The notes under the pieces were generated by a model, which did no database searches, was not told the DNA's origin, and saw only the letters and a list, made by a program, of their open reading frames with translations. Made by a program: the position numbers and the translations under genes. A stretch of 64,000 nucleotides of DNA from Rugosibacter sp. (GTDB lineage: Bacteria > Pseudomonadota > Gammaproteobacteria > Burkholderiales > Rhodocyclaceae). Shown in pieces: positions 32,237-52,974 of this stretch. Location of the stretch: positions 26,317 through 90,316 of the forward strand of contig JAUSMB010000047.1 of NCBI GenBank assembly GCA_030645365.1. The letters are read 5' to 3'. The stretch's first letter is position 1. Each line of letters starts with the position of its first letter.

Positions 32237-32288
32237 TCTATTTCGATCACCACTCTCAGTGGGAACAGATTTTGCGTCACGGCTTATT

Positions 32289-33710
32289 ATGAATATCCAT
32301 TATCCAAAATCGTTCTTCAAGCTACTGTCAGCCGGCTTTTTGCTGGCGGTTTTGCCATTGATTATTGGGTTGCTGATTAATACCGTCGCCATACAGCGAC
32401 TATCGACACAAAGCCAGCGTGCTGTTTATGATGCCGCGCGAGTGACCCATGCCGCAAGAGAATTAAGCGAAACGGCCAATTCATTGGAACGCGTTGCGCA
32501 ACAGAGTGTCATCTTGAAAGATCCGACTTTATGGAAGAGCTACCTCACTTTGCATCAACGCTTTGTAAATGCCAGCGCACAATTGAGCGAGTTGCCACTT
32601 GAAGCCTCCATGCGGCTAGAGCTAACGGCCTTGCAGCAAGAAGAACAGCAACTCAATGCCTATCTCGTAAAAATTGGCATTGATGCGACGGGCGCGACGG
32701 ATGCAGCGATTCGATATGCTGATATTGCCGATACAACGCGGCAGTTATTAACACGTTCGAGCAAGGTGATCGATAAAGAGGCAGAGTCTTTGCGCGTGTT
32801 GGCAGAGCAAACGGAGATACAAGTTAAAAGGCAACTTTTCTTGTTGCTGCCTTTGTCGATCTTCATCGTTGCCGGGTTTACGCATCTTCTCGCTAAGCCG
32901 ATTGCCCAACTGGAACAGGGTATTCGTGATCTGGGCGAACGTCGGCTTGAAACCCGGATCGAAGTGAACGGTCCTGATGACTTGAAGCAGCTGGGTGATC
33001 GGCTGGATTGGTTGCGGTTACGTTTGGTTCAGCTGGGGGAACAAAAAAGCCGTTTTTTGCGCCAGATTTCGCATGAGCTAAAAACACCTTTAACGGCATT
33101 ACGCGAAGGGTCGGATTTATTATCCGAGGAAATTGCAGGGCCGTTAACAGAAAAGCAGCGTGAAATTGTCTATATCCTGCGTCAACATAGTCTTGACTTG
33201 CAACGTCTGATTGAAGATCTGTTGCGTCATGGTGAGTCGGAGTTTCAGCAAACACCGCTTAAATTGCAACCGGTAAAACCTATTGAAATCATTGCGAAGG
33301 TAATCGATAAGCAACACTTGGCGATGGCCTCACGACATATCAAGTTAGATAGGCAAGTTGATGATTTTGTTTTGCGTACAGATCCCGAGCGATTGCGTAT
33401 CGTGTTTGACAATCTGCTGTCTAATGCTATTAAGTACTCTCCTGCAAATGGCACGATTACCGTGTCGGCAAAAAAAAATGACAATCATGTTTTGCTATCC
33501 GTGATTGATGAGGGCCCAGGTGTCGCGGATGAAGAGATGGATAATTTGTTTGATCCGTTTTATCGCGGACAGGCCGTAGCTGCTGGCGTTGTCAAAGGCT
33601 CGGGGTTGGGATTGTCGATTGCCAAAGAACATGTACTCACCTTGGGAGGGGAAATAACCGTTGGCCGAGGAAAAGGACACTTCACGGTACAACTCCCTTT
33701 AAATATATGA
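32289..33710 (+). CDS. glrK: Sensor histidine kinase GlrK/QseE-like
   Basis: Two TM segments, HAMP, ISHELKTPLTALREGSDLL, HATPase; gene order with lipoprotein and sigma54 regulator. Confidence 0.88.
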   Translation: MNIHYPKSFFKLLSAGFLLAVLPLIIGLLINTVAIQRLSTQSQRAVYDAARVTHAARELSETANSLERVAQQSVILKDPTLWKSYLTLHQRFVNASAQLSELPLEASMRLELTALQQEEQQLNAYLVKIGIDATGATDAAIRYADIADTTRQLLTRSSKVIDKEAESLRVLAEQTEIQVKRQLFLLLPLSIFIVAGFTHLLAKPIAQLEQGIRDLGERRLETRIEVNGPDDLKQLGDRLDWLRLRLVQLGEQKSRFLRQISHELKTPLTALREGSDLLSEEIAGPLTEKQREIVYILRQHSLDLQRLIEDLLRHGESEFQQTPLKLQPVKPIEIIAKVIDKQHLAMASRHIKLDRQVDDFVLRTDPERLRIVFDNLLSNAIKYSPANGTITVSAKKNDNHVLLSVIDEGPGVADEEMDNLFDPFYRGQAVAAGVVKGSGLGLSIAKEHVLTLGGEITVGRGKGHFTVQLPLNI

Positions 33711-33716
33711 CCCGCC

Positions 33717-34235
33717 ATGAAAAATTTTTATAACTATTTATTCCTAGGGTTACTCCTGGCCCTGATCTCAGGCTGTGCAACCATTAAACCGGCAGAAGTT
33801 GTTGCGCCCCCCAGACAGGTGTATTGGAGTGCATCAGGTGGTGCGAGCGCATTGCTTACTTATTTTGATCAACTACGCTTGTTGTCGGCACCCGAGCTTG
33901 CCAAGGAAACCGAACGCGCACGCAAGAATTATGCGAAAGATAAATCGACTTTCTATCAACTTCAATATGCCATTGCCTTGTCTGTTCCTGGCGGAGACAT
34001 CCGCCAGGCGCAACAATTGCTTGATCCCTTGGTCAAGGAAACGAGGCGTCGTGATCTTCCACTTCGTGCTTTGGCTGTTATGGTGAGTACCAACCTGGCC
34101 GAACGCCAAAGATTGGAGGAGGCATTGCAAACCCAAATTCGCCGTGCAGATGATCTTGATGCCAAGCTTGAAGCGTTAAAGGGTATCGAGAAAAAAATGA
34201 TGCAGCGTGAGGATGTGATCAAAGGAAAACCATGA
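33717..34235 (+). CDS. QseG-like lipoprotein
   Basis: Lipobox LISGCATI; located between glrK and glrR. Confidence 0.75.
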   Translation: MKNFYNYLFLGLLLALISGCATIKPAEVVAPPRQVYWSASGGASALLTYFDQLRLLSAPELAKETERARKNYAKDKSTFYQLQYAIALSVPGGDIRQAQQLLDPLVKETRRRDLPLRALAVMVSTNLAERQRLEEALQTQIRRADDLDAKLEALKGIEKKMMQREDVIKGKP

Positions 34236-35611
34236 GCTCGCCGAATGCAAAAAATAGCGCACAAACTCGGCTACAAACGCGATCACAGATTTTATTGGTT
34301 GATGATGACCCGGATTTGCTTCGCCTGTTGACCATTCGGCTCGAGGCGGCAGGATATGGCGTCATAACGACAGACAAGGCAGAACACGCACTAGCCATGA
34401 TTGCGGTTGAACGGCCACATCTGGTGATTACCGATCTGCGTATGCCGGGTATGGATGGTTCGGCATTGTTTGAGGCGATCAACGCGACGCATCCGGCGCT
34501 ACCCGTGATCATACTCACGGCGCATGGCACCATTCCGGATGCGATTGCCGCGACAAATCGTGGCGTGTTTGGCTATCTGACCAAGCCTTATGACGCCAAG
34601 GTGCTGATTGCTCAAGTGGAGCAGGCGTTGCGCTTTTCTGTCAGTGACAATACTGAGGCTATGAGCGAGCAAACATGGCGAGCAGGTATTGTTACCCAAA
34701 GCCCCATCATGGAAGGTCTTTTGGCGCAAGCCCGATTGGTTGCTGCTAGCGACGCCAGTGTCATGCTGTATGGAGAATCAGGCACCGGAAAAGAGTTGTT
34801 GGCCCAGGCAATTCATTTTGCCAGCGCACGGTCTGAGGCGAATTTTGTCGCTGTGAATTGCGGGGCAATCCCTGAAAACCTTCTGGAATCCGAACTTTTT
34901 GGCTATGTGCGCGGGGCATTTACCGGAGCGAATAAAGACTACGCAGGGTTAGTCAGGGAGGCCGATGGTGGCACGCTTTTCCTGGATGAGATTGGTGATA
35001 TGCCTTTGCCATTACAAGTGAAATTGCTGCGCATGCTCGAGCAGCGCGAGGTGAGGCCACTAGGTGAGGCTAAATCGCATCGTGTGGATATTCGTGTCAT
35101 TAGTGCTACACACCGCGATCTGGAGGTGGAAATGGCCGAAGGACGGTTTCGTAGCGATTTGTTTTATCGCCTCAAGGTGGTGGCGCTGGCGATTCCATCA
35201 TTGGCTGAACGGCGTGACGATATTCCTCTGCTGGCCAGGTATTTCCTACACAAGATCTCGGAAAGCTACCGAAAGGAAGTTAATGGATTTGCGCCGGAGG
35301 CAATGGAGATTTTAGTTCGTGCCAGTTGGCCCGGTAACGTGCGTCAACTGCTCAATGTCGTAGAGCAGGCAGTTGCCTTGTCTACCGGATCCATCGTACC
35401 ACTTGCACTGGTACAAAATGCCATTCGGGAGCTGGAAGACATTATCCCCTTCGATGAAGCACGGCGTCGCTTTGAAGCCGATTACCTGGCGCGGCTGCTC
35501 AAAATGACGGGGGGTAACGTTGCGAGTGCTGCCACTTTGGCGCAGCGAAATCGCACGGATTTTTACAAACTCCTGCAGCGCCATTCTATGGATCCGTCGT
35601 TGTTCAAGTAA
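34232..35611 (+). CDS. glrR: Sigma54-dependent response regulator GlrR/QseF-like
   Basis: REC domain, GESGTGKELLAQAIH, GAFTGA, C-terminal HTH. Confidence 0.93.
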   Translation: MSSPNAKNSAQTRLQTRSQILLVDDDPDLLRLLTIRLEAAGYGVITTDKAEHALAMIAVERPHLVITDLRMPGMDGSALFEAINATHPALPVIILTAHGTIPDAIAATNRGVFGYLTKPYDAKVLIAQVEQALRFSVSDNTEAMSEQTWRAGIVTQSPIMEGLLAQARLVAASDASVMLYGESGTGKELLAQAIHFASARSEANFVAVNCGAIPENLLESELFGYVRGAFTGANKDYAGLVREADGGTLFLDEIGDMPLPLQVKLLRMLEQREVRPLGEAKSHRVDIRVISATHRDLEVEMAEGRFRSDLFYRLKVVALAIPSLAERRDDIPLLARYFLHKISESYRKEVNGFAPEAMEILVRASWPGNVRQLLNVVEQAVALSTGSIVPLALVQNAIRELEDIIPFDEARRRFEADYLARLLKMTGGNVASAATLAQRNRTDFYKLLQRHSMDPSLFK

Positions 35612-35612
35612 C

Positions 35613-35630
35613 TGTCGCCACAGTGCGACA
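35613..35630. promoter_or_regulatory. Predicted GlrR binding site 1
   Basis: TGTC-GCCACAGTGC-GACA matches the enterobacterial GlrR pattern TGTC-N10-GACA. Confidence 0.7.
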
Positions 35631-35677
35631 GTAAAAATCATTAGGGTTCATCGGGTTGTAAAACCTTTGCAGCGATC

Positions 35678-35695
35678 TGTCGCCTGATGGCGACA
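35678..35695. promoter_or_regulatory. Predicted GlrR binding site 2
   Basis: TGTC-GCCTGATGGC-GACA. Confidence 0.75.
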
Positions 35696-35759
35696 GATTA
35701 TCATGCCGTGGAAATTGCTCGGCTAGCATAACCTATTGAAATTTATTATAAAAATAATC

Positions 35760-35775
35760 TGGCATGGTGATTGCT
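35760..35775 (+). promoter_or_regulatory. Sigma54 promoter
   Basis: TGGCATGGTGATTGCT vs TGGCAC-N5-TTGCW; downstream of the two GlrR sites. Confidence 0.75.
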
Positions 35776-35891
35776 TTTACCCATGGGTAGTTGAGCATTG
35801 CATCAAAGTGCCCAATTCTTTACCTATCGGAAAAAAGATTGATACCTCATGTTCACATGAGCCCCTGATCAGAAAAGAGAGAAGCGAAAAA

Positions 35892-36461
35892 ATGCAAGCT
35901 CGTCCCAAACTACTTTATCCATTAATGGTGATTGCAGCGATTGCCGTTACCGTGTTTAGCTTGCTAGGCATCGCGACTTTAACCGGAACCCTACCGCTGG
36001 CTCATTCCGAAGCGGGTACGGCATCTACGGCATCATCTATTGCGAAAGCTACACAGGAACTACTGCCAGAGTCTGGTACGAGTTCAGCTAGGCGCGACCG
36101 CACAGTAACTTCTGCCTGCCGTTACTGCGGCGTCGTGGAATCAGTGAGCCTGGTCGAAATGAAAGGTCAGGGCAGTGGCGTGGGGGCAATTGCCGGAGGA
36201 GTTGCCGGCGCCCTGGTAGGCAATAGCATCGGTCAAGGTAATGGCCGCACTGCGATGACTCTTTTAGGTGGCGCTGGTGGTGCCTACGCGGGCAATGAGA
36301 TCGAAAAAAATACGCACAAAACTTCGTCGTATCGCATCCGAGTGCGTATGGAGAATGGCCGGCTACACACGCTCTATCAGCGTAATCCGCCGGCGGTGGC
36401 AGCTGGCGATCACGTGAAAGTTGTTGGTAGTGTGATTGCACAGCAATCATCGAGTAGTTAA
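35892..36461 (+). CDS. Glycine-zipper 2TM-domain envelope protein
   Basis: GVGAIAGGVAGALVGNSIGQGNGRTAMTLLGGAGGAYAGNEIEKN; ATG at 35892. Confidence 0.88.
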   Translation: MQARPKLLYPLMVIAAIAVTVFSLLGIATLTGTLPLAHSEAGTASTASSIAKATQELLPESGTSSARRDRTVTSACRYCGVVESVSLVEMKGQGSGVGAIAGGVAGALVGNSIGQGNGRTAMTLLGGAGGAYAGNEIEKNTHKTSSYRIRVRMENGRLHTLYQRNPPAVAAGDHVKVVGSVIAQQSSSS

Positions 36462-36659
36462 GCGTTCTGAACTTGATTCGTTTTTCCGGCCGAGATGGTC
36501 CTCGGCAATCATTAGAGAAGGAGATGCAGTATGAAAAAGCGCCGCATAAAACAACGGTTAGCCCTGAGTACTATTTTTATTTAGTAGCACAAGGTTTAGT
36601 AGCACAAGGGCCGGATGATCGTCCGGTTGTTCTGTAGTCATTTCTGAAAAGGAAAATTC

Positions 36660-37247
36660 ATGTTTAAAACTCAAGAGTTAACTGGCAAGTCCGATGGATC
36701 GAATAGTGCGCGTGGTCTGTTTGGCCGACCATCGACTCCCATGCCGGCACCGGTAACCAAACCCTTTGCAGCTCAACCGCTACCCATGGCAGACGCTAGA
36801 AACCCGGTCCCTTCTGATACTTCATCTGCCTCTGACTCTGCCACACAATTGAAAGCCGAGAAAAGTGTTGGCAACCGGCTGCTCGTAGGCCCCGATGTCA
36901 AGCTCAAGGGCGCAGAAATTCTTGATTGCGATACGCTGGTTGTGGAGGGCAGGGTCGAAGCGACCATGGATAGCCATATCATCCGCATTGCCGAACAGGG
37001 CATATTCTGTGGCACCGTGAGTATCGATACGGCAGAAATACACGGTGTCTTTGAGGGTGAACTCACTGCCCGAAGCCAGTTGATCATTCATGCGACTGGT
37101 CGCGTTACTGGCAAGATCCGTTATGGAAAAATTCTGATTGAAGAAGGCGGGCAGATATGTGGCGACATTCAGTCAACGGCCCAGAATCATCCGGAAGTCA
37201 AGGCGGAAGTCAGGACTATCGGAGCCGCTATCCGGCGTGACGGATAA
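36660..37247 (+). CDS. Bactofilin-family polymer-forming protein
   Basis: DTLVVEGRVEATMDSHIIRIAEQGIFCGTVSIDTAEIHGVFEGELTARSQLIIHATGRVTGKI. Confidence 0.88.
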   Translation: MFKTQELTGKSDGSNSARGLFGRPSTPMPAPVTKPFAAQPLPMADARNPVPSDTSSASDSATQLKAEKSVGNRLLVGPDVKLKGAEILDCDTLVVEGRVEATMDSHIIRIAEQGIFCGTVSIDTAEIHGVFEGELTARSQLIIHATGRVTGKIRYGKILIEEGGQICGDIQSTAQNHPEVKAEVRTIGAAIRRDG

Positions 37248-37376
37248 TCATCCTGGGCGCTTTCTAAATTAAAAGCCGGCACCACCAGTTGCGGTTTTTT
37301 TTCTGAACGCGTAAGAAGATTGAGCTTACGGGGAGGACTGAGCCTACGGGGAAATATTGTATCTTTGCCAGTAGCC

Positions 37377-40300
37377 ATGAATACATCCAATCTCCCCGAG
37401 CCCGATCAGGATGCTATCCAGCGGGTGGTCAAGGTTCGCCGCGATTACAACTCCTGGGTTGCAACTGAAACCATTGAGGATTACGCCCTGCGTTTTACTC
37501 CCCGTGGCTTTCGTCGTTGGTCGGAAATGCGCGTGGCAAATACAGCTTTTGGCACCGCTTCCTTTTTGGTGCTTGAGGCGATAGGCGCAACCTTATTGGT
37601 GAACTACGGTTTCGCTAATGCGGTATGGGCAATTCTGAGCACCGGGCTGATCATTTTTGCGGCCAGCCTACCCATCTGTTTTTACTCCGCGCGTTACGGG
37701 GTGGATATGGACTTGCTGACTCGTGGGGCAGGTTTTGGCTACATTGGTTCCACTATTACTTCGCTGATCTACGCAACGTTTACCTTTATTTTTTTTGCTC
37801 TGGAAGCCGCGATCATGGCCTATGCGCTGGATCTGGCTTTCCATATTCCTCCTAGCATTGGTTATTTCATCAGTGCTTTAGCGGTGATACCCCTCGTGAC
37901 TCATGGGGTCACAACGATTAGCCGTTTCCAGACATGGACCCAACCGGTCTGGATTGCACTGCTGGTACTGCCTTATTTTTATGTCCTGAAGGCCAATCCC
38001 GGCATTCTGGAAGAGATACGCCATTTCAGCGGCGCGGGTAGCGCAGATTTTGATTTCCACCTGTTTGGCGCCGCACTGACGGTGGGGATTGCCCTGATCA
38101 CCCAGACGGGTGAACAGGCGGATTATCTGCGCTTCATGCCCGAACGTACGGCCAAAAACAAGTGGCGCTGGACGCTTGCTCTGTTGATTGGCGGTCCGGG
38201 GTGGATTGTGCCGGGGATAGCCAAGATGCTGGGTGGTGTGTTACTAGCGTATCTGGCGATACGTGGTGGGATATTCTTAGAGAAGGCGGTGGATCCCAAT
38301 CAAATGTACCTGCTGGCCTATGGCTATATGCTACCTTCCCCTGGCTTGGCAGTCGCCATGACTGTACTGTTTGTTGTGATCTCGCAACTCAAGATCAATG
38401 TTACTAATGCTTATGCAGGCTCTCTGGCCTGGTCCAACTTTTTTTCCCGGCTCACGCATAGCCATCCGGGGCGCATTGTTTGGGTGGTATTCAATGCATT
38501 GATTGCGTTGATGTTGATGGAGATGAATGTATTCCAGGCACTCAAGGATGTGCTTGGGCTGTATTCCAATATCGCCATCGCCTGGATGACTACCGTGTTA
38601 GCTGATTTGATCATCAATAAACCGTTGGGACTTTCTCCTGCGGGGATCGAATTTAAACGAGCAAATCTGTATGACATCAATCCGGTAGGGGTGGGGGCGA
38701 TGAGCATCGCTTCGGTACTTTCGGTAGTCGCCTATGCCGGCATCTTTGGCCCGGGGGCTGAAGCATTTTCTGCAATCATTGCCCTGGTGGCCGCTTTAAT
38801 GACATCGCCGCTGATTGCCTGGGCAACCAAGGGGCGCTATTACTTGGTGCGCATGCCCAAGGCAGCACCGGCTTCTGGCACATTGCAACGTTGTTGTATT
38901 TGTGAACGCGAGTATGAGGTGGAGGACATGGCGCGTTGTCCGGCCTATCAGGACACCATTTGTTCTTTGTGCTGCTCGCTGGATGCTCGTTGCAATGACC
39001 TGTGCAGGCCGGATGCCCGCCTGACGGCGCAATGGACTGCCTTGATTCGCCGGCTGTTGCCGCGAGTGGTATCACCTTACCTGGAAAGGGGGCTGGCGCA
39101 TTATCTGCTGCTCATGGCGGCTATCGCGCCTTTACTGGCTTTGGTGCTGGGGCTGCTTTACCACTACGAATTGCGTCGCTTGGCTGGGGCTGAATCCGCG
39201 ATTGCTATCCTGTTGGGCCAATCCTTTGTACGGACGTATGCAGTGTTGTTGTTTGTGTCAGGGATTGCAGCCTGGTGGCTGGTGCTGACACAGAAGAGCC
39301 GTCAAGTTGCCCAGGAAGAATCCAATCGCCAGACACACTTGCTGATACGGGAGATTGCGTCCCACCGACATACCGACGAGCAATTGCAGAAGGCTAGGGA
39401 AATTGCGGAGCAGGCCAACCAGGCAAAGAGTCGTTACATCACGTCTATCAGCCACGAACTGCGTACACCGCTGAACAGCATCCTGGGCTATGCACAAATT
39501 CTGGATGGCGATCCTGGCGTTCCCCCCAATCGTCGTCAGGCAGTCAATGTCATCCGGCGAAGTGGCGATCATTTGCTTTCTCTGATTGAAGGCACGCTGG
39601 ATATTGCCCGCATTGAGAGCGGCAAGTTCACTCTGGATGTGCGGCCACTGGATTTTCAAGACTTCATCCAACATCTTGTCGGCATGGTGGAGCAACAGGC
39701 AAGGCAGAAAGGACTGGATTTTTTCTACGATGCCTCTGCGGGATCCCTGCCGCTTGTTGTTCGTACGGATGAAAAGCGTTTACGACAGATATTGCTGAAT
39801 GTGCTAGGCAACGCGGTCAAGTTTACAGTGCGTGGCCGGGTAACTTTAAGGCTGCGTTACCAGCGCGAGATGGCATTTTTTTCAATCGAGGATACGGGGC
39901 CAGGAATCGCCGAGTCTGAGCTATCAGCGGTTTTTGAGCCTTTCTCACGTGGGAGTGCTACTTATATCGGTGCTACTGGCGGTGCGGGAATTGGGCTGAC
40001 CATTGCGCGCATGCTGACAGATATGATGGGCGGCGAAATCACCCTAGATAGTGAATTGGGCAAGGGGAGCTGTTTTTCCTTGCGGTTTTATCTGCCAAGT
40101 GTGCATGGAGAGCAAGCGTCCAAAGTAGAGCCTCTGGAGCGGATTGGGTACCTAGGCGAACGGCGGCGTATCCTTGTTGTGGATAACGAGCAGGTCGACC
40201 GGCAACTGCTGGCGAATATGCTGGAACCCCGTGGTTTTCAAGTTGACCAGGCGGAGAACGGACAAGCTTGTCTGGAGAGGACTGATGGGTTTAAGCCGCA

Positions 40301-40790
40301 CGTGATTTTTATGGATTTGGCCATGCCAGGCATGGATGGATGGGAAACCATACGCCGCATTCGTGAAGCAGGATTGAGCGATGCCAGAATATGCGTACTC
40401 TCCGCCAATGCATTCGAGAAGAATGTGGATAATTTGTTTGGTATCTCTGGCGCGAATTTCATTGTCAAGCCATTCCGGGTGAGCGATGTATTGGACTGGA
40501 TCGGCACGCAACTGGAACTGGAATGGGTGTATTCCGCAATGCCGGCCGCTAGCGTGGTTTCTGATGTGTTGCCACCGGCCATTGTGCCGCCGGGGCCGGA
40601 GCATCTGGCAACATTGCGGGAAATGATCGGCTTGGGTTACATGCGCGGCATACTCGAAAAAATCGATATGATTGAGCAACTTGATTCCGTACATGGCGAG
40701 TTTGTCCATGTGATGCGGACTTTGGCTGAGCGGTTCCAGTTTGAGCCCATGAAGGAGATTTTGCGCAAATATGAGCATGACGCCCATTGA
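37377..40790 (+). CDS. NCS1/cytosine-permease-like transporter fused to histidine kinase and receiver domain
   Basis: N-terminal ~12 TM permease; Cys-rich linker CCICEREYEVEDMARCPAYQDTICSLCCSLDARCNDLCRPDA; SHELRTPLNSILGYAQIL; REC VIFMDLAMPGMDGWETIRRIR; ATG at 37377. Confidence 0.88.
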   Translation: MNTSNLPEPDQDAIQRVVKVRRDYNSWVATETIEDYALRFTPRGFRRWSEMRVANTAFGTASFLVLEAIGATLLVNYGFANAVWAILSTGLIIFAASLPICFYSARYGVDMDLLTRGAGFGYIGSTITSLIYATFTFIFFALEAAIMAYALDLAFHIPPSIGYFISALAVIPLVTHGVTTISRFQTWTQPVWIALLVLPYFYVLKANPGILEEIRHFSGAGSADFDFHLFGAALTVGIALITQTGEQADYLRFMPERTAKNKWRWTLALLIGGPGWIVPGIAKMLGGVLLAYLAIRGGIFLEKAVDPNQMYLLAYGYMLPSPGLAVAMTVLFVVISQLKINVTNAYAGSLAWSNFFSRLTHSHPGRIVWVVFNALIALMLMEMNVFQALKDVLGLYSNIAIAWMTTVLADLIINKPLGLSPAGIEFKRANLYDINPVGVGAMSIASVLSVVAYAGIFGPGAEAFSAIIALVAALMTSPLIAWATKGRYYLVRMPKAAPASGTLQRCCICEREYEVEDMARCPAYQDTICSLCCSLDARCNDLCRPDARLTAQWTALIRRLLPRVVSPYLERGLAHYLLLMAAIAPLLALVLGLLYHYELRRLAGAESAIAILLGQSFVRTYAVLLFVSGIAAWWLVLTQKSRQVAQEESNRQTHLLIREIASHRHTDEQLQKAREIAEQANQAKSRYITSISHELRTPLNSILGYAQILDGDPGVPPNRRQAVNVIRRSGDHLLSLIEGTLDIARIESGKFTLDVRPLDFQDFIQHLVGMVEQQARQKGLDFFYDASAGSLPLVVRTDEKRLRQILLNVLGNAVKFTVRGRVTLRLRYQREMAFFSIEDTGPGIAESELSAVFEPFSRGSATYIGATGGAGIGLTIARMLTDMMGGEITLDSELGKGSCFSLRFYLPSVHGEQASKVEPLERIGYLGERRRILVVDNEQVDRQLLANMLEPRGFQVDQAENGQACLERTDGFKPHVIFMDLAMPGMDGWETIRRIREAGLSDARICVLSANAFEKNVDNLFGISGANFIVKPFRVSDVLDWIGTQLELEWVYSAMPAASVVSDVLPPAIVPPGPEHLATLREMIGLGYMRGILEKIDMIEQLDSVHGEFVHVMRTLAERFQFEPMKEILRKYEHDAH

Positions 40791-41718
40791 TAGAAACAGC
40801 CAGGACGTCGTCCTGATTGTGGATGACGTGCCAGAAAACCTATCCTTGTTGTATGACGCGCTGGATGAAGCGGGCTATGCGGTGTTGGTGGCGACGAATG
40901 GGGAAAGTGCCTTGCAGCGCGCACGCCAGAGTTTGCCTGATGTCATTTTGCTGGATGCCTTGATGCCCGGCATGGATGGATTCGAGGTGGCCAGAAATTT
41001 GAAGGCCGAGGCCGAGACGCAGCGTATCCCCATCATCTTCATGACCGGATTGACGGAAACAGAGCACGTGGTCGCGGCCTTCGCTGCTGGCAGTGTTGAC
41101 TATGTCACCAAACCCATCCGGCCATCCGAAGTGCTGGCCCGCATTGCGGCCCATGTACGGAGCGCCCGGCAGACTCAGCAGGCACGCAGCGTGCTGGATG
41201 CTTATGGCCAGGCCTGCATGTCCATGCGGCCAACGGATGGCGTGATGCTATGGCAAACCCCGCTGGCGCGTACCCTATTGCTGAAATACGGCGGACAGGA
41301 TGAGCGCCAGTTTGTCTCACGCATACACAAATGGTTGCAAGTTGCCTTAACTAAGCCCCCCCCACCTGTACCTTTGGAAACTACTGGTGATGAAGGACGA
41401 ATGATATGCACCCTGCATGGACATACCGATGAAGGGGAGTGCCTGCTGGTGCTGCGTGAGGAAAGTGATGCAGCCATGACTAGGGCATTGGTGGATTCTT
41501 TCGGGCTCACGGTGCGCGAAGCGGAAGTACTGTACTGGGTGATCTATGGCAAGACCAATCGGGACATTGGGGACATTCTGGGAATTAGCCACCGGACGAT
41601 CAACAAGCACACGGAAAATCTATTTGAAAAACTCGGTGTGGAAACCCGCACTTCCGCAGCGGCGGTAGCTATGCGTCGCTTGCAACTACCTAAGCAAACT
41701 ACACCCCCCAAATCCTGA
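40771..41718 (+). CDS. LuxR-type response regulator
   Basis: REC LLDALMPGMDGFEVARNLK; HTH LTVREAEVLYWVIYGKTNRDIGDILGISHRTINKHTENLFEKLGV; overlaps the kinase gene. Confidence 0.92.
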   Translation: MSMTPIDRNSQDVVLIVDDVPENLSLLYDALDEAGYAVLVATNGESALQRARQSLPDVILLDALMPGMDGFEVARNLKAEAETQRIPIIFMTGLTETEHVVAAFAAGSVDYVTKPIRPSEVLARIAAHVRSARQTQQARSVLDAYGQACMSMRPTDGVMLWQTPLARTLLLKYGGQDERQFVSRIHKWLQVALTKPPPPVPLETTGDEGRMICTLHGHTDEGECLLVLREESDAAMTRALVDSFGLTVREAEVLYWVIYGKTNRDIGDILGISHRTINKHTENLFEKLGVETRTSAAAVAMRRLQLPKQTTPPKS

Positions 41719-51277: not shown

Positions 51278-52974
51278 AGATCGCCAGACAAGCCTATGCC
51301 GAAATGTTCGGCCCCACGGTGGGCGATCGTGTACGGCTGGCGGACACCGAGCTGTGGATCGAGGTGGAAAAGGATTACACGGTTTATGGTGACGAAGTAA
51401 AGTTTGGTGGTGGCAAGGTCATCCGCGACGGCATGGGGCAGGGGCAAAAGCTGGCCAAGGATGTCGCCGATACGGTAATCACCAATGTGCTCATCGTCGA
51501 TGCGGTGCAGGGCATCGTCAAGGCCGATATCGGGTTGAAGTACGGCATGATTTCGGCCATCGGCAAGGCGGGTAATCCGGATGTACAACCCGGGGTAACA
51601 ATCGCCATCGGCGCGGGCACGGAGATTATCGCCGGTGAAGGCATGATCATCACGGCGGGCGGATTGGACGTGCACATCCATTTCATTTGCCCGCAGCAGA
51701 TAGAAGAAGCGTTGATGTCCGGTGTCACCACGATGCTCGGCGGCGGCACGGGGCCAGCCACAGGGACTTTCGCCACAACCTGCACGCCGGGGCCATGGCA
51801 TATCCATTCCATGCTCTCGGCCGCCGAGGCTTTTCCGATGAACCTGGGATTTCTGGGCAAGGGCAATGCTTCGCTGCCCGGCCCTTTGCGGGAACAAGTG
51901 GAAGCCGGCGTGATTGGCCTGAAACTCCACGAAGACTGGGGCACCACCCCGGCCGCGATTGATAACTGCCTCACCGTGGCCGACGAGATGGATGTACAGG
52001 TTGCGATTCATACCGACACGCTGAATGAATCCGGTTTTGTGGAATCGACACTGGCTGCCTTCAAGGGGCGCACCATCCACACCTATCACACCGAAGGTGC
52101 TGGTGGCGGGCATGCGCCGGACATCATCAGGGCGGCCTCCCTGCCCAATGTGTTGCCCAGTTCGACCAACCCGACGCGGCCTTACACGGTGAACACCATT
52201 GACGAGCATCTCGACATGCTGATGGTCTGCCATCACCTTGATCCGGCGATTGCGGAAGATGTGGCGTTTGCCGAATCACGCATCCGCCGCGAAACGATTG
52301 CCGCCGAGGACATCCTGCACGATCTGGGCGTTTTTTCGATGATCTCCTCGGATTCCCAGGCCATGGGGCGCGTCGGTGAAGTGATATTGCGCACCTGGCA
52401 GACCGCGCACAAAATGAAAATACAGCGCGGTACATTGAAGGAAGATGTGGCGCGCAACGATAACTACCGTGTCAAGCGCTACATCGCCAAATACACCATC
52501 AACCCGGCCATCACTCATGGCATAGCGCATATTGTCGGCTCGATCGAACCCGGCAAGCTGGCCGATCTGGTGTTGTGGAAGCCTGCCTTCTTCGGCGTCA
52601 AGCCCAGCCTGATACTCAAAGGCGGCATGATCGCCGCGGCCGCGATGGGCGACCCGAATGCCTCGATTCCGACACCGCAACCGGTGCACTACCGGCCCAT
52701 GTTTGGCAGTTTTGGCGGCGGGCTGAAAACTTCGCTGACCTTTGTTTCGCAAGCGTCATTAAGAAATCCGGATGTGCAATCCCTCGGCTTGAAAAAATGT
52801 CTGGAGCCGGTCAAAAACTGCCGCACGATCAGCAAAGCCGACATGGTGCACAACAGTGCCACGCCAGTGATAGAAGTGGATGCGGAAACCTATGCCGTGC
52901 GTGCCGATGGCGAGTTGCTGGTCTGTGAGCCGGTAAGCGTCTTGCCGATGGCCCAACGATATTTTCTATTCTGA
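51274..52974 (+). CDS. ureC: Urease subunit alpha
   Basis: [22 protein letters not shown]; active-site Lys in [17 protein letters not shown]. Confidence 0.98.

Follow-up and report, generated by a model that had tools for sequence, protein, structure and literature searches.

A recurrent sigma54 control region behind glrR as the probable output promoter of a QseEGF envelope-stress system in Rugosibacter

The DNA that directly follows glrR in a Rugosibacter genome very probably serves the GlrK-QseG-GlrR (QseEGF) envelope-stress system as its output promoter. To our knowledge, almost all that is known of GlrK-GlrR comes from enteric bacteria, in which the system has been connected with GlmY, rpoE, virulence and host hormones. 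The stretch analyzed here (the window; 64,000 nucleotides) belongs to a 2.36-Mb draft genome that is 91.9% complete, and a match at 93% identity comes from another member of the genus (G722, a sister Rugosibacter). Comparative genomics supports the proposal of the initial annotation that a GlrR/sigma54 control region lies directly 3' of glrR; what had been described as a single case proves instead to be a recurrent arrangement, found behind glrR in many relatives.

The regulatory genes of the cluster all lie on the plus strand. The sensor kinase gene glrK (qseE; 32259-33710) encodes HAMP, HisKA and HATPase domains (Pfam), and its product shares 33% identity with E. coli GlrK over 420 amino acids, periplasmic part included. 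The best PDB match to the kinase, chain 9m08_C (E 1e-60), covers residues 15-468, nearly the full length, and the 9m08 entry contains QseG besides the kinase; a QseE-type kinase with full-length similarity, placed directly upstream in the cluster, is what marks a QseEGF three-component system. The sigma54 activator/response regulator gene glrR (qseF; 34232-35611) encodes receiver, sigma54 AAA+ and HTH domains. Its product and E. coli GlrR share 55% identity over 443 amino acids, and its best NCBIfam model is GlrR, at 585 bits, which is below that model's cut-off of 763. The recognition helix, RNRTDFYKLL, is nearly identical to the RNRTEFYKLL of the E. coli protein. The same genome carries rpoN and seven further full-length sigma54 activators besides GlrR, eight in total.

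Between glrK and glrR lies a qseG-like gene for an outer-membrane lipoprotein (33717-34235; lipobox LISGC). A BLAST comparison of E. coli QseG with this lipoprotein gave no match, nor did the single window sequence match any PDB entry. A profile of the lipoprotein family, searched against 177,635 PDB entries, returned the QseG structures 9m06 and 9m08 at the top but with a marginal E value of 0.03, and hhalign assigned the pairing of the lipoprotein with QseG a weak probability of 17%. Position and lipobox fit QseG, and the marginal sequence link agrees with the divergence of QseG sequences described in PMC12691602.

Inspection of the region 3' of glrR, whose stop codon (TAA) occupies 35609-35611, reveals two predicted GlrR operators at exactly the coordinates first given for them. 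UAS1 (TGTCGCCACAGTGCGACA; 35613-35630) scores 20.9 bits and UAS2 (TGTCGCCTGATGGCGACA; 35678-35695), 65 bp from UAS1, scores 24.4 bits with the same matrix; both are perfect palindromes over TGTCGC-N6-GCGACA, and the matrix finds no other site of at least 14 bits in the rest of the 64-kb window. The bare eight-base pattern TGTC-N10-GACA is weak on its own, since its two occurrences per 64 kb compare with 0.55 expected and two are reached in 11 of 100 shuffles. The position of the sigma54 promoter was likewise confirmed: TGGCATGGTGATTGCT (-24/-12; 35760-35775, plus strand) scores 21.9 bits, the best sigma54 matrix score on either strand of the window, in which one other site exceeds 16 bits. The operator and sigma54 matrices were trained on sites of other genomes, with the window excluded. 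Both operators lie upstream of the -24/-12 element, and between UAS2 and the promoter is an IHF-like site (TTTCAATAGGTTA; 35729-35741, minus strand), of predicted occupancy, with one mismatch to WATCAANNNNTTR. From this layout we infer that transcription would depend on GlrR and RpoN; no sigma70-type promoter was found across 35600-36700.

The same arrangement accompanies glrR across related bacteria. Exact site pairs are present in 61 of the 300 genomes searched in the order (Burkholderiales), against 3 for a reversed control pattern. GlrR, scored with its 63-amino-acid tail as query (the scores show a clear gap), is present in 127 of the 300, and pairs spanning 80-87 bp occur in 42 of these 127 genomes as opposed to 3 of the 173 that are GlrR-negative (Fisher p 9e-15); 29 of 70 pairs sit within 700 bp of glrR. 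A site together with a sigma54 promoter lies no more than 500 bp downstream of glrR at 80 of 103 loci (0.05 in shuffles), with at least two sites downstream at 63 of 103 (0 in shuffles), in a set that was found partly through the site pair itself and that overlaps in part with the training loci of the matrices. At 53 glrR loci chosen mainly for having no exact adjacent pair, the module is present in 35 and at least two sites in 21, and a second genome collection (named organisms, partly overlapping the first) has it at 44 of 77 glrR loci. At the thresholds used, the module is absent from 23 of the 103 loci and from 33 of the 77. Within a phylum-wide sample the pair is confined to the GTDB class (beta plus gamma), save for one genome with a different core. 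Two GlrR-negative genomes, G024 and G243 (loci L029 and L065), have paired palindromes of another kind, such as TGTCAAAAGTATCGGACA; these are probably sites of another regulator.

Across 74 modules, the two operators are spaced 65-67 bp apart in 65, and the distances from UAS2 to the promoter cluster near 70, 82, 93, 102 and 112 bp. These distances show helical phasing with a 10.5-bp period (Rayleigh R = 0.75), and IHF-like sites are enriched both between the two operators (41 versus 5 in shuffles) and between operator and promoter (50 of 74 modules versus 8 in shuffles), although the p values for phasing and IHF are optimistic because the 74 modules pool related genomes. Phasing and IHF-like sites together fit an activator that would occupy a single face of looped and bent DNA.

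In the mechanism that we propose, phosphorylated GlrR would bind both palindromes on one DNA face, and an IHF-assisted bend would bring it to RNA polymerase-sigma54 at 35760-35775, where ATP hydrolysis would open the promoter. Transcription starting at about 35786 would then yield an mRNA for a glycine-zipper protein and probably also for a bactofilin, and the same GlrR would drive a second module, on contig C61, that precedes an OlsB-like acyltransferase gene. GlrR binding, phosphorylation, activation, the start site and bactofilin co-transcription are all predictions from sequence.

The genes that these promoters would drive are mostly envelope genes across relatives, which bears out the earlier suggestion that the output is directed to the envelope rather than to glmY. 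In the window, the first gene of the operon (35892-36461, plus strand) encodes a glycine-zipper (2TM) envelope protein (Pfam PF05433). A glycine-zipper homologue is also the most common output elsewhere, following 35 of 80 glrR-linked promoters, or 25 of 69 when the window and the loci found via that gene are excluded. Other outputs, as defined by clustering the genes after the promoter, are BON/EF-hand-BON proteins, OpgG/OpgH, CsbD-like proteins and small lipoproteins; OpgH and OpgG serve periplasmic glucan synthesis. Named examples include opgGH in Hydrogenophaga flava, a BON protein in Chitiniphilus shinanonensis and a glycine-zipper protein in Methylobacillus arboreus. One class of targets was unexpected: at three loci (L030-L032; G227:C4, G162:C21 and G082:C48) the pair and a sigma54 promoter precede a cyanophycin-synthetase-like gene, an output that is not obviously envelope-directed, and all three genomes have glrR elsewhere.

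Downstream of the glycine-zipper gene, the remnant of a gene for an exported glycine-rich protein (36515-36640, plus strand), decayed here and 273 amino acids long in the sister genome, stands before a bactofilin gene (36660-37247, plus strand; Pfam PF04519), the probable distal member of the operon. In two genomes of the same family (L043 and L045), bactofilin has its own GlrR-type pair and sigma54 promoter beside a divergent glrK, which argues for the bactofilin of the window as an operon member, probably co-transcribed with the glycine-zipper gene. The operon is undergoing trimming in this lineage, with the promoter and the glycine-zipper gene retained. Just past the bactofilin gene, the stretch 37320-41718 contains a 1156-amino-acid frame whose permease-like N-terminal part is apparently fused to a hybrid histidine kinase, and after it a response-regulator/LuxR-type gene, both as judged from the translations.

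Between the expected start near 35786 and the ATG at 35892 lies a leader of about 106 nt (35786-35891, plus strand), for which an unannotated sRNA had been suggested. On such a reading a leader sRNA made from the promoter would take the functional place of GlmY, with read-through as the only route to the glycine-zipper gene. The enterobacterial target glmY is indeed an sRNA with the same operators, and the leader contains a 6-bp hairpin, CTCATG-TTCA-CATGAG. Alignment with the sister genome (G722/L149), however, places about 241 extra nucleotides at the junction 35817/35818, and these contain a decayed gene for a small glycine-zipper lipoprotein that is intact directly after the promoter in G769 and other relatives. 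The leader thus consists of two formerly non-coding pieces joined by deletion, and the junction is the scar of the lost gene. Nor is its fold unusual (z = -0.79); no plus-strand terminator was found in it, an Rfam search returned no match at the leader, and in many other genomes a reading frame belonging to a recurrent family follows closely 3' of the promoter. We therefore consider a leader sRNA very unlikely and keep to an mRNA leader for the glycine-zipper gene. Elsewhere in the window, Rfam matches 5_ureB_sRNA at 51420-51709 on the minus strand (75 bits; gathering 40), possibly mere similarity to a urease coding region.

More improbable still is an assignment of the sites to a different sigma54 activator encoded in this genome, such as the PEP-CTERM regulator PrsR. 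A clear PrsR (738 bits) is among the eight full-length activators, and the PrsK-PrsR regulon resembles the present system in that its sigma54 activator is of the two-component type, its upstream sites recur, and its targets, behind sigma54 promoters, are exported, envelope or EPS-linked (PMC1569441). The activator, however, is a different one, and the box described for PrsR has TTTACA at its end, whereas the operators here read TGTCGC..GCGACA, adjoin glrR and track the presence of GlrR across genomes; on box sequence and linkage to glrR, PrsR was rejected in favor of GlrR. The PEP-CTERM cluster of PrsK, PrsR and a TPR lipoprotein in the same genome lies on contig C70 (L092, 2867-9259). That palindromes and promoter arose by chance, with the glycine-zipper gene on an ordinary promoter, is hardly credible, for although some shuffles (11 of 100) match the two hits of the bare pattern, the full-motif scores, spacing, phasing and glrR-linked recurrence are far above shuffles, and the region shows no sigma70-type promoter.

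Comparison with known GlrR targets places the locus beside a familiar design. In enterobacteria, GlrR recognizes the consensus TGTC-N10-GACA and targets glmY (PMC8745638, PMC6075780). Upstream of E. coli glmY, the same operators are found with 63-bp spacing, so that the spacing is about 63-65 bp there and in the window alike; all three E. coli sites are recovered by the matrix derived from the relatives. The E. coli QseE-QseG-QseF/glmY system also shares the kinase-lipoprotein-activator trio, IHF, and a sigma54 promoter beside the system genes. The two differ in that glmY, an sRNA gene, lies upstream of glrK in E. coli, whereas the promoter of the window lies downstream of glrR and serves envelope proteins. 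A protein output of GlrR directed to the envelope through sigma54 has a counterpart in the E. coli rpoE P2 promoter, which is reported to be activated by QseF (PMC6075780), but the target there is a sigma factor gene and here structural envelope genes; our matrix finds no site upstream of rpoE, which had been taken as a positive control.

A GlmY covariance model, positive on the E. coli control, found no match in 120 genomes of the order, this one included. Given the identities of the targets and the absence of GlmY matches among the genomes covered, the betaproteobacterial system thus appears to act via envelope and osmotic-stress proteins and not via GlmY. The QseEGF cluster is reported from Betaproteobacteria, including Chitiniphilus shinanonensis (PMC12691602, 2025), in a paper whose portion considered here covers the QseG-QseE interaction, with the glmY promoter as reporter, and does not describe betaproteobacterial outputs. 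A literature search at the level of titles, covering few subscription journals, did not link QseF/GlrR to glycine-zipper, BON, bactofilin or periplasmic-glucan genes as regulon members.

These conserved targets hint at the purpose of GlrK-GlrR and predict the class of signal that it would sense, namely outer-membrane or osmotic stress; they also suggest candidate functions for glycine-zipper and BON/EF-hand proteins, about which little is known, and the module promoters offer ready reporters in harmless, culturable species. We give even odds to a broader reading, in which GlrKGR was ancestrally an envelope/osmotic-stress regulator with an output promoter behind glrR and exchangeable genes (glycine-zipper, BON, OpgGH, OlsB-like, bactofilin), and GlmY control was a later enterobacterial replacement.

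A check of the genome for other pairs beside sigma54 promoters, as the initial annotation had advised, identified the second GlrR-type module on contig C61 (L001:7422-8516), which, like the IHF-like site and the leader scar, was absent from that annotation. Single TGTC-N10-GACA sites are mostly uninformative at this scale, the 23 in the genome equaling the count for the reversed control; adding a promoter-like sequence at 45-75 bp reduces the set to C61, C80 and a lone site on C66. A site on C41 (L002) was set aside, as it falls within the first part of a long reading frame. The count of regulon members within this genome is a minimum. The C61 module pairs two palindromes, likewise spaced by 65 bp, with a promoter, TGGCTCGCTATTTGCT, downstream of which lies a gene for a GNAT acyltransferase whose best NCBIfam models are OlsB, at scores below cut-off, and which we accordingly call OlsB-like. 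At one gammaproteobacterial locus (L109), glrR is followed downstream by an acyltransferase that shares its Acetyltransf_5 domain with the C61 enzyme, and a second such locus (L116) has a protein similar to that enzyme at 30% identity; these relatives behind glrR tie the acyltransferase to GlrR independently of the C61 module.
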